A stretch of DNA of 54,310 nt from Ignavibacteria bacterium (GTDB lineage Bacteria > Bacteroidota > Ignavibacteria > Kapaibacteriales > UBA4661): the NCBI GenBank assembly GCA_013298775.1, contig JAAFIV010000030.1:1-54310 (forward strand). The letters run 5' to 3'. Positions within the stretch are counted from its first letter, which is position 1. Each line of letters opens with the position of its first letter. Made by a program: the position numbers and the translations under genes. A model generated the notes under the pieces. The model made no database searches. It saw only the letters and a program-made list of their open reading frames with translations, and was not told the origin of the DNA. This document shows, piece after piece, positions 7,197 to 34,493 of this stretch.

Positions 7197-7266
7197 GTTA
7201 AGCGGCGTAAAATCTAAGAGAGTAACTAAGATTATCTAAATTGAATTCTCAATAACTCTTCAAAAT

Positions 7267-8307
7267 ATGGACAAAAAATATCAAGTTTTTGTTAGCTCAA
7301 CATACACGGATCTCGAAAATGAAAGGCGTGAAGTAATTCAAGGCTTGCTCGAAATGAATTGTATTCCTATCGCCATGGAGTTATTTCCTGCTGCTAATGA
7401 TGACCAATGGACTTTCATTGAGCGTTTAATAGATGATTGTGATTACTATGTTGTTATTGTTGGAGGGCGATATGGCTCTTTATCGTCAGACGGCATCAGC
7501 TATACACGTAAAGAGTACGAATACGCCGTCAGTAAAAAAGTGCCAGTTGCTGGTTTTTTACCTAAAGAACCAGATAAGATTGCGATTGGAAAAACAGATA
7601 AAGATACAGAGAAGAATCGGTTACTTGATGAATTCAAAAACTTGGTAGGAAGAAAAATGTGCAAGTTCTACAATAGCCCCGAAGACTTGAAAGCTAAGGT
7701 AATTACTAGCATGATGCACTTAATGAGAAGCGATCCCAGACCAGGTTGGATAAAATCAGACACTCTCTCGGAAAATAATGTACAAGAGTTACTCAGGTTA
7801 CGAGAGCAAATTGATTATTTACAAGAGCAACTCTCTACACGTAGTAATGATGCCCCAGAAGGGACAGAAATCTATGAGCAAGATGAGGATACTTTTGATT
7901 TCAGCCTGACATATAGATTGGATATTTTTACTGAATTTGGGCAAGAGCATGATATGGTCATGAGATTAACTTGGAATGAAATCTTTTATGCAATGTCACC
8001 ATACTTGATAGATGAAGCAAGTGAAGCACAAATGCGAGATGGTCTAAAGCACTTTCTGGAACCCCAAGCCCAAATTCATTATCAAGGGAAAATGAGTAGC
8101 TCAGACTATCCTAAAATAGCTTCAATCCAGCTTAATAATGATGAATTTCAAACTATCAAGATTCAGCTTTCAGCCTTGGGGCTGATTGAGAAAAGCGTAA
8201 AGAAGCGCAGTATCAAAGATCAACAAACTTATTGGAAATTAACTGGCTATGGAGAGCATAAAATGACCTCATTAAGAGCCTTGCGCAAAAAACACACATC
8301 AAGATAG
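7267..8307 (+). CDS. DUF4062-domain protein
   Basis: This protein has 346 residues. Residues about 5-90 match DUF4062, with YQVFVSSTYTDLENERREV near the start and CDYYVVIVGGRYGSL. The domain resembles TIR folds and often sits at the N-terminus of STAND NTPases or other conflict-type proteins. Here no NTPase follows. Instead there is a short coiled-coil-like segment (about 175-195, LRLREQIDYLQEQLS), an acidic linker and a C-terminal region ending in YWKLTGYGEHKMTSL that looks like a winged-helix wing. By eye the gene is more AT-rich than methylmalonyl-CoA mutase upstream, which suggests acquisition by transfer. The exact function is unknown; a sensor or effector role in defence is inference only. 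Confidence 0.7.
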   Translation: MDKKYQVFVSSTYTDLENERREVIQGLLEMNCIPIAMELFPAANDDQWTFIERLIDDCDYYVVIVGGRYGSLSSDGISYTRKEYEYAVSKKVPVAGFLPKEPDKIAIGKTDKDTEKNRLLDEFKNLVGRKMCKFYNSPEDLKAKVITSMMHLMRSDPRPGWIKSDTLSENNVQELLRLREQIDYLQEQLSTRSNDAPEGTEIYEQDEDTFDFSLTYRLDIFTEFGQEHDMVMRLTWNEIFYAMSPYLIDEASEAQMRDGLKHFLEPQAQIHYQGKMSSSDYPKIASIQLNNDEFQTIKIQLSALGLIEKSVKKRSIKDQQTYWKLTGYGEHKMTSLRALRKKHTSR

Positions 8308-8414
8308 TATTACTCTTTTCAATGAAGCACCATAATCAGATTCATGTACAGATAATAGAAACACCTGAATTCACCCCATTCAACTCCCAACCAATTTTGT
8401 TTAAGAGTTTAGCT

Positions 8415-8565
8415 ATGCCTGAACTAAGCCGTTTTCTAGGTATTGTCATTTTCATGAACTACCGCGACCATCAGCCGCCGCATTTTCATGCCCGATACAA
8501 TGATTACGAATTGGCTTCTTGCACGTGAACACAAAGCACTCGCAACCATTGAACCACTGGAATAG
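8415..8565 (+). pseudogene. DUF4160 protein, degraded
   Basis: ATG at 8415 begins MPELSRFLGIVIFMNYRDHQ followed by PPHFHARYNDYE, the hallmark N-terminus of DUF4160 proteins. The frame then ends early with LASCT and stop. Shifting by one frame at about 8507 restores NWLLAREHKALATIEPLE and stop, which looks like the normal C-terminal end. The reconstructed protein is about 50 residues against a usual 75-90, so the middle was deleted and the frame lost. DUF4160 genes usually precede a DUF2442 gene, as here, in a toxin-antitoxin-like arrangement. This half of the pair appears dead. Confidence 0.65.
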
Positions 8566-8569
8566 CACC

Positions 8570-8830
8570 ATGTTTCTTCATATTCATTCGTTTCGCATTT
8601 GCAACGATTACATCCTTGAATGTGGCTTCACAACTGGGGAAATTCTGCGTGTTGATTTGCGCGATGAGCTTTACGGTGAAATATTTGAACCTCTTTTAGA
8701 CAAAAAGCAATTCGCCAAAGCCCGCATGAATACTGATACGCTGACCGTCGAATGGAGTAATGGTGCCGACTTCGCACCAGAATTTTTATACGAACTTGCC
8801 AAGCAACAACAGCATGAACTTCAGGAATAA
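8570..8830 (+). CDS. DUF2442 family protein
   Basis: This 86-residue protein starts at ATG 8570 (MFLHIHSFRICNDYILECGF). It shows DUF2442 features: a leading beta strand, GEILRVDLRDELYGEIFEPLLDK, and a central TVEWSNGADFAPEFLYELA. Members occur next to DUF4160 proteins and are thought to work with them, perhaps as toxin-antitoxin partners, but no activity is established. The gene starts 4 bases after the degraded DUF4160 remnant and ends 4 bases before the DUF2281 gene, so the three were probably one transcript. It looks intact although its partner is broken. Confidence 0.7.
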   Translation: MFLHIHSFRICNDYILECGFTTGEILRVDLRDELYGEIFEPLLDKKQFAKARMNTDTLTVEWSNGADFAPEFLYELAKQQQHELQE

Positions 8831-8834
8831 ACCC

Positions 8835-9056
8835 ATGACCACACTCGTACAAAAACTCGCAGAACTCCCGCCAAATCTTGTGCAGGAAGTTGATGACTTT
8901 GTGGATTTTCTGGTTGCAAAGCATCTTCCTCCTTCTTCTGAGATAAGCGAAGAAATGCAACAGCGCAAACACGACATCGAACAAAATCGTAACATCGTCC
9001 GTTTTTCGGCGCAAGAATGGAAGGCATATTGTGAGGAATATCGCCTTCCAAGTTGA
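8835..9056 (+). CDS. DUF2281-like antitoxin
   Basis: This 73-residue protein starts at ATG 8835. The N-terminal LAELPPNLVQEVDDFVDFLVAKH is the typical DUF2281 helix, followed by a charged segment and a C-terminal tail (RFSAQEWKAYCEEYRLPS) that could wrap a toxin. Small proteins of this kind commonly act as antitoxins. The stop overlaps the GTG start of a YoeB/Txe-like toxin reading frame at 9031, so the two were translationally coupled. The antitoxin is intact while the toxin frame carries an in-frame stop, a common end state of such cassettes. Role inferred from context. Confidence 0.6.
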   Translation: MTTLVQKLAELPPNLVQEVDDFVDFLVAKHLPPSSEISEEMQQRKHDIEQNRNIVRFSAQEWKAYCEEYRLPS

Positions 9057-9294
9057 AGCGTTCAAAGAATGACGGTCTTGGGCGGAAACAGACAAGAAAC
9101 TTCAGCTCAAAATTCTGGATTTGCTTAATGATGCTGCGCGTTCGCCCTTTTCGGGTTTGGGTAAGCCGGAACCATTGAAAGGCGATTGGCAAGGCTACTG
9201 GTCGCGTCGTATTGATGAAGAACACCGTTTAATTTATCGCGTTACCGAATCAGAGATTGTCGTCGTGCGATGTCGAGGGCATTATACACCGTAA
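9031..9294 (+). pseudogene. YoeB/Txe-family toxin interrupted by TGA at codon 14
   Basis: From GTG 9031 the frame reads MRNIAFQVEAFKE, then TGA at 9070-9072, then RSWAETDKKLQLKILDLL and on to GKPEPLKGDW, WSRRIDEEHRLIYRV and CRGHYTP before TAA at 9292. This is a full-length YoeB/Txe ribosome-dependent mRNA interferase (87 codons) in every respect except the stop. The conserved EHRLIY and the C-terminal HY motif expected of the active site are present. A single substitution explains the stop. No internal start with a good ribosome site is evident, so the toxin is probably silent, unless TGA is read through or is an assembly error. Confidence 0.75.
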
Positions 9295-9319
9295 ACTGTA
9301 TTATTTATCGTGAAAATTT

Positions 9320-10501
9320 ATGACCGAACCCTTCATCAAATATCTTCGCATTGAAAATTACAAGAGCATTGACAAGCTCGAACTGCGTGATATTCCGCCG
9401 TTTGCGGTCTTTGCTGGTGCGAATGGTTCGGGGAAGAGTAATTTTTTTGATGCGTTGGAGTTTGTAAAAATCTTTACTCGTTTCGGTATTGATGCGGCTT
9501 TGGAGCAACATCGAGGCTTCGATGATATTCACTGTGTTCGTCGTTATGGGGCAAAAGCACGTAAGTTTGAGTATGCTTTTATTTTTCAAGAGTATGTACG
9601 AGAATTTAATGAGCGAATTGTCGGTACAGCCGGAACGACAGAATATAACCTTGAAATATCTCATCTTGATAAAACTCCTCACATTACAGAAAGCCTATCC
9701 TTTTCTTCTGAGGCGTATCCATATACACGTGATGGAGACAAAATGTTTTGGTTTATGCTTGATGTACAATATCATCTTTTACAGCAAGATGCCCCAAAAC
9801 CACCTCACACGCCGCATCAATTACCTATCTCAAGCAATTTGTCCATGATGCAGCACTTTCAGGCAGCTTGGAAAGAACTGCATACCAATTTGAGCATTTT
9901 CCGTATTGACCCGCTTGGTGGCAAATATCCATCAGCTGCAAACGTTGATAAGTCACAACTGGACAAGCATGGACACAATGTAGCGGCAGTGCTGGAGCGT
10001 TTGGAAAAGGATGACGATATCCGGACAACGATTATGGAATACATCGGATTATGTGTTCCAAACCTTGAAGAATTAGCTATACGGCGGCATTTAGATGGCA
10101 GTAAAATGTTGATGATTAAAGAGTCCGGGGTGAAGAAAAAGTTTCCCGCGCATCTTATTTCTGATGGCACAATTTATTTACTCAGCCTTCTTGTTGCTAT
10201 TTTGGATAAAAACAAAAAAAGACGGTGGGTTTGCATTGAAGAACCAGAACGCGGTTTGCATCCAAAGGCAATCGCTGAGATGATTGATTTAATGCGCCGT
10301 ACAGCAACGCCAGACAATCCTATTTGGCTGACAACCCACAGTGAAACAGTTGTACGCTGTTTGCGCGATAACGAACTCTGGTTTGTGGAAAAGGAAAACG
10401 GCGTAACACAGATAAAACCTGCGCGGCAATTCACACCAAACGGGCTGACACGGAATCAAGCATGGCTTGCAAACGGGCTTGGAGGTGGCTTGCCATGGTG
10501 A
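9320..10501 (+). CDS. AAA family ATPase (SMC/OLD-like, AAA_21), possible defence ATPase
   Basis: This 393-residue ABC-type ATPase of the OLD/AAA_21 kind has a Walker A of GANGSGKS (33-40) after the typical YLRIENYKSI opening and a signature-like LISDGTIYLL (about 279-288). Its Walker B is VCIEEPERGLHPK, with Glu307-308, and its H-loop is LTTHSETVV (His340). There is no fused TOPRIM nuclease. Instead the next gene overlaps the end by 7 bases and encodes a separate TOPRIM-like protein. ATPase plus nuclease-like partner is the architecture of OLD-type, Gabija and PARIS immune systems, so an anti-phage role is a reasonable inference. It sits in an island full of toxin-antitoxin remains. Confidence 0.85.
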   Translation: MTEPFIKYLRIENYKSIDKLELRDIPPFAVFAGANGSGKSNFFDALEFVKIFTRFGIDAALEQHRGFDDIHCVRRYGAKARKFEYAFIFQEYVREFNERIVGTAGTTEYNLEISHLDKTPHITESLSFSSEAYPYTRDGDKMFWFMLDVQYHLLQQDAPKPPHTPHQLPISSNLSMMQHFQAAWKELHTNLSIFRIDPLGGKYPSAANVDKSQLDKHGHNVAAVLERLEKDDDIRTTIMEYIGLCVPNLEELAIRRHLDGSKMLMIKESGVKKKFPAHLISDGTIYLLSLLVAILDKNKKRRWVCIEEPERGLHPKAIAEMIDLMRRTATPDNPIWLTTHSETVVRCLRDNELWFVEKENGVTQIKPARQFTPNGLTRNQAWLANGLGGGLPW

Positions 10502-11079
10502 AAATTGGCTTTGTAGCAGAAGGTGAATGCGATACGTTTATCTTGAAGTCGGAGCATTTCCGCGCATTGGCAGAGCGTTTGGGCGTTTATGTTTGCCCTG
10601 AAATTATCAATGCGCATGGCGAGGGGAATTTACGCTACTCGAATCTTATTCCCTTTGCAAATCTTTGTTACGACCAAGCGGAGACACCTGATAAAATCAT
10701 CGTTCTGACAGACCTTGAAACAGAGCCTTGTGTTATCGAAGTAAAGAAACGTATAGAAACAAGCGGCATGGCAGATAAGATTGTGGTTGCTCGAAAAGCA
10801 CTGGAAGCCTGGTTCTTAGCCGACCACGAAGGGCTTTCTCGCTATCTTGGTCAGAGATTCCCTGTGGTTGAATTTCCCGAACAAACAGCAACAATGCCAT
10901 GGGATGAGCTACGGCAACGTGTAAAAAGTGTGAGTCCGCGCGGCGTTGGACAGCTTAAAAAAGCCTTTGCAAAACGTTTTGCAGCACATTTCTCCCTCGA
11001 ACGCGCCGCCCAGCACCCACGCTGCCCAAGTGCCGCATATTTCCTTGAGACGCTCAGAACAATGGCTGGTTCGCCATAA
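10495..11079 (+). CDS. DUF4276-like (TOPRIM-fold) partner of the AAA ATPase
   Basis: This 194-residue protein starts at ATG 10495, overlapping the ATPase stop. The N-terminus VKIGFVAEGECDTFIL supplies the glutamate expected of a TOPRIM domain (Glu9). IIVLTDLETEP (about 68-78) supplies an Asp73-x-Glu75 pair, and VARKALEAWFLAD matches the E-AW-LAD segment typical of DUF4276 and related TOPRIM-like families. TOPRIM domains occur in OLD nucleases, topoisomerases and primases and bind divalent metal through these acids. The protein ends with a basic helical segment (SPRGVGQLKKAFAKRF). The tight overlap implies co-translation with the ATPase. Nuclease activity is inferred; the family placement is moderate. 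Confidence 0.65.
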   Translation: MVKIGFVAEGECDTFILKSEHFRALAERLGVYVCPEIINAHGEGNLRYSNLIPFANLCYDQAETPDKIIVLTDLETEPCVIEVKKRIETSGMADKIVVARKALEAWFLADHEGLSRYLGQRFPVVEFPEQTATMPWDELRQRVKSVSPRGVGQLKKAFAKRFAAHFSLERAAQHPRCPSAAYFLETLRTMAGSP

Positions 11080-11188
11080 TCATTATTGTTTTGCTTTTTC
11101 AAAAAATCCCTATACTTTTCTTCTTTCTGTAATACAACCGTTCAACAAATATAATTCACAACATTTCTTCTCTTCATCTTCCAACAGT

Positions 11189-11761
11189 ATGCCAAGCAAG
11201 CAACCCAGCAGCGTCTATCAACTCAAGATAACGCTCAACGACAGCAAACCCGCCATTTGGCGGCGTATCGAAATCAGCAGCGATACGAAGTTGGACAAAG
11301 CCGCACTCATTATTTTGAAAGCAATGGGCTGGGAAAATGCGCATCTGCATCAGTTTATCGTAGGGCAGACGCTGTATTCTATGCCCGACCCGTATGACAT
11401 GATGAATTCCCTCGACGAGCGTAAATACACGCTTGCGCAGATTTTACCGAAGGAAAAAGCGAAGTGTTTATTTGAATATGATTTCGGCGACGGCTGGAAT
11501 CACGAACTGTTGGTCGAAAAAGTGCTGGAGGCAGAACCGAAAGTCAAGTATCCACGCTGTACGGATGGCAAAATGGCGTGTCCGCCGGAAGATTGCGGCG
11601 GCGTGTGGGGCTATATGGATATGGTGGAAATCCTGAAAGACCCCGAACACGACGAGCATGATACCTTCGTGGACTGGCTTGGTTTGGAGAGTGGTGAGGA
11701 TTTTGACCCGAAGGAATTTAATGTGGAAGAAGTAAATGCGCGGTTTCGAGGGAAAGGATAG
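11189..11761 (+). CDS. Plasmid pRiA4b ORF-3-like family protein
   Basis: Translation from ATG 11189 gives 190 residues. The protein shows the pRiA4b ORF-3 signature: YQLKITLNDSKPAIWRRIEI at the start, WENAHLHQFIVG, then YEYDFGDGWNHEL in the form FEYDFGDGWNHELLVEKVL, followed by CPPEDCGGVWGY and DPKEFNVEEVNARF. The family is widespread on plasmids, phages and in mobile islands; its biochemical role is not established. The frame is open further upstream to 10946, but that part overlaps the preceding gene and is not conserved-looking. The next gene follows closely on the same strand. It may mark the right end of the accessory island. Confidence 0.85.
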   Translation: MPSKQPSSVYQLKITLNDSKPAIWRRIEISSDTKLDKAALIILKAMGWENAHLHQFIVGQTLYSMPDPYDMMNSLDERKYTLAQILPKEKAKCLFEYDFGDGWNHELLVEKVLEAEPKVKYPRCTDGKMACPPEDCGGVWGYMDMVEILKDPEHDEHDTFVDWLGLESGEDFDPKEFNVEEVNARFRGKG

Positions 11762-11860
11762 GAGACCACATTGCTGAACATCACAAAACAACAAGAGAGA
11801 TTTCAAGAATACGTCAAGAATGACGTATCTTTCAAAAAACGTATCAAACGACAAACAATA

Positions 11861-33677: not shown

Positions 33678-34442
33678 CTACGCGCTTGCTACGCGATGGA
33701 AAAAATTATACACCCGCTCATCATGCGTTATTGCTTTCACTTCTGCAAGCGTGCCGTGAGCAATGATGCCGCGTGCGCCCTTGTCGAGCATTATCACGTA
33801 GTCCGCGATGTCGTCAATGCTTTGGAGTTCGTGCGTAACGACAATCATCGTGGTTCCGAGTGCGGAATTGAGTTCGCGGATGAGCTTATCGAGCGAGGCA
33901 GAACTGATGGGGTCAAGTCCCGCAGAGGGTTCATCAAAGAAAAGAATTTCGGGGTCGAGAGCCATTGCGCGGGCAATTCCAGCACGTTTTTTCATGCCGC
34001 CGGAAATTTCCGCCGGAATGTAGCCTTGAAATTTACCCAAGCCTACCGAGCTTAATTTCATTGCAACAATTTCCGAAATACGTTCCTCTGAAAGCCGCGT
34101 ATTTTCAAGGAGCGGCAGCGCAACATTCTCTGCCAGCGTCATGGATGCAAACAGCCCGCCTGACTGGAACAAGATACCAAATTTTCGTAAAATATGCCGC
34201 CGTTCTTCGCCAACAGAACCCAAAAATTCTTCGCCGTCGTAGCGAACGCTACCTTCTTTTGGCTCGACAAGCCCCGTGAGCGTGCGCAAGAGCGTACTTT
34301 TGCCGCAGCCGCTTCCTCCCAAAATCACGGAAATTTTCCCACGCGGAACGTCGAAGTTAATATGCTCAAACACGCGCAGCCCACTAAACTCAACCGTGAG
34401 ATTGCGGGCTTCGATGACATTCGTGCTAGTGTGTGCGGACAT
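33678..34442 (-). CDS. ABC transporter ATPase of the Mla type
   Basis: This 254-residue ATPase has Walker A GGSGCGKST, Q-loop FQSGGLFASMTLAENV, signature ISGGMKKRAGIARA and Walker B ILFFDEPSAGLDP, and ends with VVTHELQSIDDIAD. The GGLFASMTLAENVALP and SGGMKKRAGIARAMALDPE segments are characteristic of MlaF, which powers phospholipid trafficking with the MlaE permease. The MCE and lipoprotein genes follow in the same direction. The permease gene that normally precedes or follows mlaF is not in the window, an atypical arrangement. Expression probably begins in the 50 bases upstream, behind the terminator at 34494-34537. Confidence 0.93.
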   Translation of the reverse strand: MSAHTSTNVIEARNLTVEFSGLRVFEHINFDVPRGKISVILGGSGCGKSTLLRTLTGLVEPKEGSVRYDGEEFLGSVGEERRHILRKFGILFQSGGLFASMTLAENVALPLLENTRLSEERISEIVAMKLSSVGLGKFQGYIPAEISGGMKKRAGIARAMALDPEILFFDEPSAGLDPISSASLDKLIRELNSALGTTMIVVTHELQSIDDIADYVIMLDKGARGIIAHGTLAEVKAITHDERVYNFFHRVASA

Positions 34443-34493
34443 TGGGCAATACAGTAAAAACAAAGAATTATTCCTGCGACGCGGGCAAATTTA

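Follow-up and report, generated by a model that had tools for sequence, protein, structure and literature searches.

A new HEC-01 gene pair from an Ignavibacteria bacterium, with a TOPRIM-like DUF4276 protein and a candidate exchangeable sensor region in its ATPase

In the present work, we report that two adjacent genes in a 54,310-nucleotide stretch of DNA from an Ignavibacteria bacterium (contig JAAFIV010000030.1 of assembly GCA_013298775.1; the whole stretch is referred to as the window) are, as judged from their sequences, a new member of HEC-01, a catalogued two-gene candidate defence system (HEC, Hma-embedded candidate; PMC12988326, PMC12111858). The first gene encodes an ABC-type ATPase, HEC-01A, and the second a small DUF4276 protein, HEC-01B, which carries an OLD-type TOPRIM signature and is the putative effector. 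The best explanation, and one that we hold to be somewhat probable, is that HEC-01 is antiviral and that its ABC ATPase acts as a sensor whose recognition lobe can be exchanged and which controls a two-metal TOPRIM nuclease.

The gene pair and the TOPRIM signature of HEC-01B

The two genes are open and intact on the + strand of the window (9320-10501 and then 10495-11079), with the start codon of the second at 10495-10497 and the stop codon of the first at 10499-10501. The mechanically called open reading frame (ORF) of the effector starts at 10462; the start used here is the ATG at 10495, which aligns with that annotated in L109 and L110, two E. coli relatives. Residue counts for the effector refer to an alignment of 59 rows, from which the duplicate L092 and effector ORFs of less than 150 amino acids (L085, L105) were left out. 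The features of the pair and of its effector are as follows.

9320-10501, + strand: HEC-01A, an ABC-type (AAA_21/OLD-like) ATPase of 393 amino acids, putative sensor and regulator (Pfam, PADLOC, AlphaFold2 model)
10495-11079, + strand: HEC-01B, a DUF4276 TOPRIM-like protein of 194 amino acids, putative two-metal nuclease effector (Pfam, PADLOC, hhalign, Foldseek)
10495-10501, + strand: 7-base gene overlap, found likewise in the E. coli loci L109, L110 and L176
10519-10521, + strand: Glu9, predicted TOPRIM glutamate, in 56/59 effectors, matched by alignment to the VEG glutamate of the OLD profiles
10618-10620, + strand: Gly42, candidate TOPRIM glycine, in 55/59
10711-10719, + strand: Asp73-Leu-Glu75, predicted D-x-D/E motif; Asp73 in 58/59, position 75 acidic in 38/59 and Tyr in 16/59
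10804-10806, + strand: Glu104, invariant helix glutamate (59/59) and candidate metal-B ligand, placed on the x-I-E glutamate by the two longer alignments with OLD profiles
10957-10959, + strand: Lys155, candidate catalytic lysine, in 47/59, matched to BpOLD Lys562 on order and spacing alone and not by alignment

Both proteins are matched nearly full length by HEC-01 models of PADLOC. The best model for the ATPase is HEC-01A (PDLC04176; 8.2e-121, 401.8 bits, model positions 3-371 of 371), and the best models outside HEC-01 are far weaker (AbiLi 2.5e-31, AriA 3.5e-30, then mad3 2.5e-18 and GajA 9.1e-15). The effector has 15 PADLOC matches in all, with HEC-01B (PDLC04191) the best at 3.3e-57. In Pfam, the ATPase matches AAA_21 (2.1e-27) and the effector DUF4276 (5.2e-11; 43.6 bits against a cut-off of 30.2). 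An initial annotation, made from the sequence alone, had already read the pair as an AAA_21/OLD-like ATPase overlapping by seven bases a small DUF4276-like protein, distinct from the DUF4435 of PARIS. The overlap, the Walker A motif at residues 33-40, Glu307-Glu308 and His340 of the ATPase, and Glu9, Asp73 and Glu75 of the effector are all where it placed them, and the separation from PARIS agrees with the Pfam result, the lack of an AriB match and the weak DUF4435 profile match. It could not match the pair to a named system, and the two HEC-01 models supply that name. As a side observation, the HEC-01A and HEC-01B labels of the PADLOC models PDLC04143 and PDLC04144 look swapped, the 190-position model named HEC-01A matching effectors and the 395-position model named HEC-01B matching ATPases.

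The proposed TOPRIM fold of the effector is based on profile comparison, fold search and the conservation of Glu9 and Asp73. When the effector family, taken whole (59 rows) or as eight selected members, was compared by hhalign with 19 OLD-like TOPRIM fragments, the scores were 84-94% over five choices of lead sequence, as against 0.1-0.2% for reversed-template controls, the E-values being those of single comparisons. In the OLD profile alignments, Asp73-x-Glu75 falls on D-x-D and Glu9 on the VEG glutamate. The two-metal site of BpOLD, an active site of OLD class 2, consists of E400, E404, D455, D457, T506 and E508, plus K562, and single active-site substitutions are reported to be tolerated there (PMC6755086). 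The order Glu9, Asp13, Asp73, Glu75, Glu104 and Lys155 in the effector agrees with this site order, the agreement for Lys155 being limited to order and spacing. An acidic residue occupies position 13 in 32/59 effectors, and position 102, an Ala in the window, is Glu in 50/59.

The AlphaFold2 model of the effector (predicted local distance difference test, pLDDT, 72.6) has strands at residues 2-8 and 67-72, which end just before Glu9 and Asp73. With this model, Foldseek gave the BpOLD TOPRIM (6nk8) as the sole PDB chain below 0.001 (8.3e-4). The VIA-align Z scores were 7.0 for the best row, the uncharacterised archaeal protein 2p62, 6.6 for BpOLD (6nk8), 6.5 for AriB (8ux9) and 5.7 for GajA, so that 2p62 is level with BpOLD and AriB. 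Neither the effector sequence nor its profile had a significant match among solved structures. The TOPRIM-like order of acids in the initial annotation thus stands for Glu9 and Asp73, and the homologues also share Glu104, whereas the second acid of the D-x-E motif is kept in 38 of 59. DUF4276 is a domain of unknown function in Pfam, for which we found no mention in the literature searched (preprints and most subscription papers lay outside it); the OLD-like TOPRIM signature gives this family a predicted character.

The variable middle of the ATPase

Residue counts for the ATPase are from a second alignment of 59 rows, composed of ORFs of 320-520 amino acids and including a few ATPases that have no partner effector.

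9416-9439, + strand: Walker A motif GANGSGKS, residues 33-40; Lys39 in 58/59 aligned ORFs
9500-9949, + strand: variable middle, residues about 61-210, putative recognition lobe (block identities to relatives; comparison with genome G007)
10160-10171, + strand: SDGT, residues 281-284, which we take to be an ABC-signature-like motif; Ser281 in 57/59, Gly283 in 58/59
10238-10243, + strand: Glu307-Glu308, following the Walker B strand (modelled at 303-307); Glu308 in 57/59, Asp in 2/59
10337-10339, + strand: His340, presumably the switch (H-loop) position; His in 42, Gln in 14 and Asn in 3 of 59

The best fold matches of the ATPase model (pLDDT 75.4) are the heads of Rad50, SMC and PtuA proteins, with Z of 17.8-19.8 among the 50 rows listed; AriA is absent from those 50 rows, which excludes nothing.

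Relatives of the window effector at 35-36% identity were found on 11 plasmid records, all from E. coli, and a search of 5426 E. coli genomes with the whole pair of one such relative found close relatives in 26, each match having pglX at one end and pglZ at the other. In the three E. coli loci followed in detail (L109, L110 and L176), the pair lies exactly between the BREX genes pglX and pglZ. A near-mode search with the adjoining pglZ returned 28 genomes, namely those 26 by accession and two at 85-87% identity, which sets the range of pglZ relatives covered by this survey. One of these two, R18, carries an AriA/AriB-like pair in the pglX-pglZ slot (L175:4078-5867), consisting of an ATPase with AriAB/AriA as best matches and a second protein whose sole PADLOC match at 1e-5 is AriB (9.4e-15); in the other, 2273-PO3, the BREX locus is broken. 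The E. coli BREX slot can therefore accommodate a pair of either kind, HEC-01 or PARIS-like. A class of TOPRIM-linked OLD-ABC pairs located in BREX has already been described, in a source whose main text does not contain DUF4276 (PMC12839542).

Along the BREX locus from pglX to brxL, the E. coli haplotypes X14-3 and N17 show identities of 0.95-1.00 in most 150-base blocks. They diverge in two patches. The first, in pglX at about 4.1-6.3 kb, goes down to 0.38 and is presumably the pglX specificity region; the second, at about 7.05-7.95 kb, covers the middle of the ATPase (0.60-0.80; L110:7052-7952 against L176). The effector of the two haplotypes is 99.5% identical in nucleotides, and the blocks of effector, pglZ and brxL are at 0.95-1.00. 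Between S30 and X14-3, the pglX patch differs and the ATPase does not (0.95-0.99), so that the pglX and ATPase exchanges are separable.

A similar break was seen within the window's own genus. When the window is compared with genome G007, the first 40 codons of the ATPase are 0.88-0.90 identical in nucleotides, like the neighbouring mutase gene (0.82-0.94), and the remainder falls to 0.29-0.50 at residues 61-220 and 0.40-0.68 up to residue 380, returning to 0.85 over the last 13. The place of the break resembles that between the E. coli haplotypes. We also note a tract of 148 bases at the start of the gene (window 9318-9465; L170:3031-3178) that is 91% identical to the G007 copy and then ends abruptly. 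Against ten relatives, the middle of the ATPase has an identity per 30-residue block of 0-40%, mostly 10-30%, and the start is better conserved than the middle in nine of the ten; the C9 copy from the window's own genome is low from the start.

We infer from these comparisons that the ATPase middle is a recognition lobe exchanged by recombination while the nuclease is kept, although fast selection without recombination may be an alternative cause of its divergence. The comparison singles out a region of the ATPase as the probable determinant of what is sensed, and the natural E. coli alleles, with a near-constant effector and a changed ATPase middle, make sensor specificity in this class directly testable in laboratory strains.

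Linkage and genomic site of the pair

The initial annotation had named conserved adjacency of the two families as a check on its reading, and the ATPase is indeed directly upstream of the effector on the same strand in 59 of 62 places examined. The genes overlap in 50 of these linked places, are separated by 0-25 bases in eight and by 202 bases in one. The 62 places comprise 59 distinct regions, two further loci and the window; the 59 regions correspond to 60 loci (L060 and L092 being one place), hand-picked from DUF4276 and HEC-01B matches and neither random nor exhaustive, and the ATPase and effector models for gene finding were iterated from the window proteins on this same set. The three exceptions are L054, with no effector ORF, L071, in which no ATPase was found, and L093, with the genes 1866 bases apart; in L085, L098 and L105, which are counted as linked, the ATPase ORF is short or broken. 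In the genome of the window, an ATPase of the HEC-01A kind is directly upstream in all three places with DUF4276, which makes the pairing more than chance, and the three HEC-01-type copies are diverged from one another. A further ORF of the window (33678-34463, - strand, 261 amino acids) matches the iterated ATPase model at 1e-27.

DUF4276 was found in 80 of 395 genomes of a phylum sample (E 0.001), and the close HEC-01B model was matched in three of ten genomes of the family. ATPase-effector pairs are also carried on viral contigs (L111-L115); those of L112 and L115 lie within the contig, the L112 pair being, by eye, between repressor-like and integrase-like phage ORFs. The effector alone found no relative in a search of viral contigs and no match among phage records, and the ATPase matches four phage records, all unannotated.

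In the window, the pair lies among DUF4062, DUF4160/DUF2442, DUF2281 and a YoeB remnant, with a methylmalonyl-CoA mutase gene (named by eye from its sequence and not by family search) on one side and an OmpA/PD40 gene on the other. The neighbours from 4.7 to 13.6 kb comprise HicA, on the far side of the mutase, the mutase, DUF4062, toxin-antitoxin genes, PRiA4_ORF3 and OmpA/PD40. The YoeB part is C-terminal (9121-9294, profile positions 27-80 of 80) with an in-frame stop upstream, the toxin remnant as a whole spanning 9022-9294, and the DUF4160 fragment covers profile positions 1-26 of 65. At the head of the AT-rich stretch, an open frame at 7267-8307 encodes a DUF4062 protein (2.5e-29) that has no PADLOC match.

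The initial annotation placed the pair among toxin-antitoxin remnants in an AT-richer island typical of defence islands. The remnants are those just listed, and the content of guanine plus cytosine at 7-11 kb is 0.41-0.45 per kilobase, as against mostly 0.45-0.58 elsewhere, with three other kilobases also at 0.42-0.44. Genome G007, of the same genus, has an HEC-01 pair at the same site behind the same mutase. Behind the mutase of G008, all that remains of a closely related effector is its C-terminal end (58 bases at 89.7%, 28 residues at 78.6%). Pieces of DUF2442 and DUF2281 accompany it, and next to these lie a DNA methyltransferase and a NotI-like endonuclease. In the stretch fetched from G001-G006 (about 3 kb only for G001), we found no gene of those that lie between mutase and SdhC in the window. 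Because its contents differ across these genomes, the site behind the mutase (window 7197-11770; L169, L170) is a variable cargo slot in the genus. The description as a typical defence island is borne out only to that extent, and does not carry over to the phylum sample, where the genes flanking such pairs are mixed: among 107 flanking genes scanned of 114 selected (seven being left out, mainly over a size limit), no PADLOC family occurred in more than three, and the commonest Pfam families were ResIII (7) and DEAD (6).

Mechanism, alternatives and comparison with known systems

In the mechanism that we propose, the ABC-type ATPase would hold the small TOPRIM protein inactive until the variable middle of the ATPase recognises a phage product, which would trigger release or activation of the TOPRIM protein. 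Using two metals coordinated by Glu9, Asp73 and Glu104, this protein would then cleave nucleic acid, and the infection would abort, as with PARIS, which aborts infection by tRNA cleavage (PMC12409363). The target could be RNA, as for AriB, or DNA, as for OLD, with a slight preference on our part for RNA, given the analogy to the split genes of PARIS. PARIS itself is activated by the phage Ocr protein (PMC12839542). We are close to evenly divided, with doubt slightly prevailing, on whether HEC-01 is a PARIS-like second-line guard in which recombination swaps the ATPase middle, as a specificity lobe, independently of the PglX specificity region and leaves the DUF4276 nuclease constant. If this is true, natural alleles would detect different phage products, for example anti-restriction proteins, through one shared killing enzyme.

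Several points weigh against the proposed mechanism. The E. coli mosaic consists of three haplotypes only, and the adjoining pglZ is more than 99% identical in all 26 genomes, which therefore stand for one BREX lineage and not for 26 independent placements. Between the window and G007, the effector has also diverged (38% identity in amino acids). Position 75 of the effector is not conserved, both structural models were made from 8-row alignments, and the Z scores of the effector are all below 8, with Argonaute MID domains at 5-6 in the same list. To these may be added the mixed flanking genes of the phylum sample. The release step is an analogy with PARIS, and the antiviral role of the window pair is that of a candidate.

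An unlikely, but not far-fetched, alternative is that the pair forms an OLD-like split DNA nuclease, a single DNA-cutting machine that would recognise phage DNA ends or structures with neither a trigger protein nor a release step. The effector profile fits OLD TOPRIMs far better than the four-sequence DUF4435 set, the ATPase model resembles Rad50/SMC heads, and OLD and GajA cut DNA (PMC6755086, PMC10781630). However, a change of the E. coli ATPase middle under a constant nuclease is a better fit to a varied protein trigger than to DNA ends, and the BREX slot can carry a PARIS-like pair. We consider it improbable that HEC-01 is a toxin-antitoxin or addiction module with no phage sensing, in which the ATPase would neutralise a toxic TOPRIM protein and the pair would be selfish cargo. 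Such a module would agree with the gene overlap, the adjoining toxin-antitoxin remnants, the decay in G008 and the pairs on viral contigs and plasmids; the location of the E. coli pair within the BREX operon and the restriction of its divergence to the ATPase middle argue otherwise.

There is also little likelihood that the window copy is a decaying relic that no longer works. The neighbouring toxin-antitoxin genes are broken and the related G008 copy is reduced to its C-terminal end, yet both window frames are open and the predicted active-site residues are present. A housekeeping role in DNA repair or maintenance, outside defence, is very improbable in view of the patchy distribution of the pair and the three diverged copies in one genome, notwithstanding the Rad50/SMC-like head of the ATPase. 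Three points may surprise specialists: the assignment of DUF4276 to TOPRIM-like proteins, a slot shared with a PARIS-like pair, and a constant effector under a changed sensor.

The HEC systems were reportedly described in a preprint by Payne et al. in 2024 (10.1101/2024.01.29.577857). The window genes, adjacent on one strand, share with HEC-01 the nearly full-length matches given above, and they differ in that they are not embedded in Hma, the context in which HEC systems were discovered (PMC12111858). The HEC-01 defence system is also dealt with in PMC12724379. HEC-04 (IbfA), for which protection against T4 and T5 is reported second-hand (PMC12111858), likewise combines an ABC ATPase with a TOPRIM, but as a single fused protein. 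MADS is more distant, since the window ATPase matches mad3 (2.5e-18) and the effector weakly mad4 (0.025), far below HEC-01, and the pair was not assigned to it, the MAD3 score being 96.3 bits against an NCBIfam cut-off of 420.

With Gabija and OLD, the effector shares the predicted OLD-type TOPRIM acids, and the TOPRIMs of GajA and BpOLD are among its fold matches. In those systems, however, one protein combines ATPase and TOPRIM, and GajB is a helicase (PMC10568477). The window pair keeps the two as separate genes, the scan of its flanking proteins showed no helicase, and it was accordingly not placed in Gabija. PARIS resembles the window pair in having separate tandem genes for the ABC ATPase (AriA) and the TOPRIM (AriB). 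AriB is a DUF4435 protein according to the initial annotation, whereas the window effector is DUF4276, and membership in PARIS was rejected on the absence of AriB from the effector's 15 PADLOC matches and on hhalign scores of 0.2% and 15.3% against four DUF4435 proteins.

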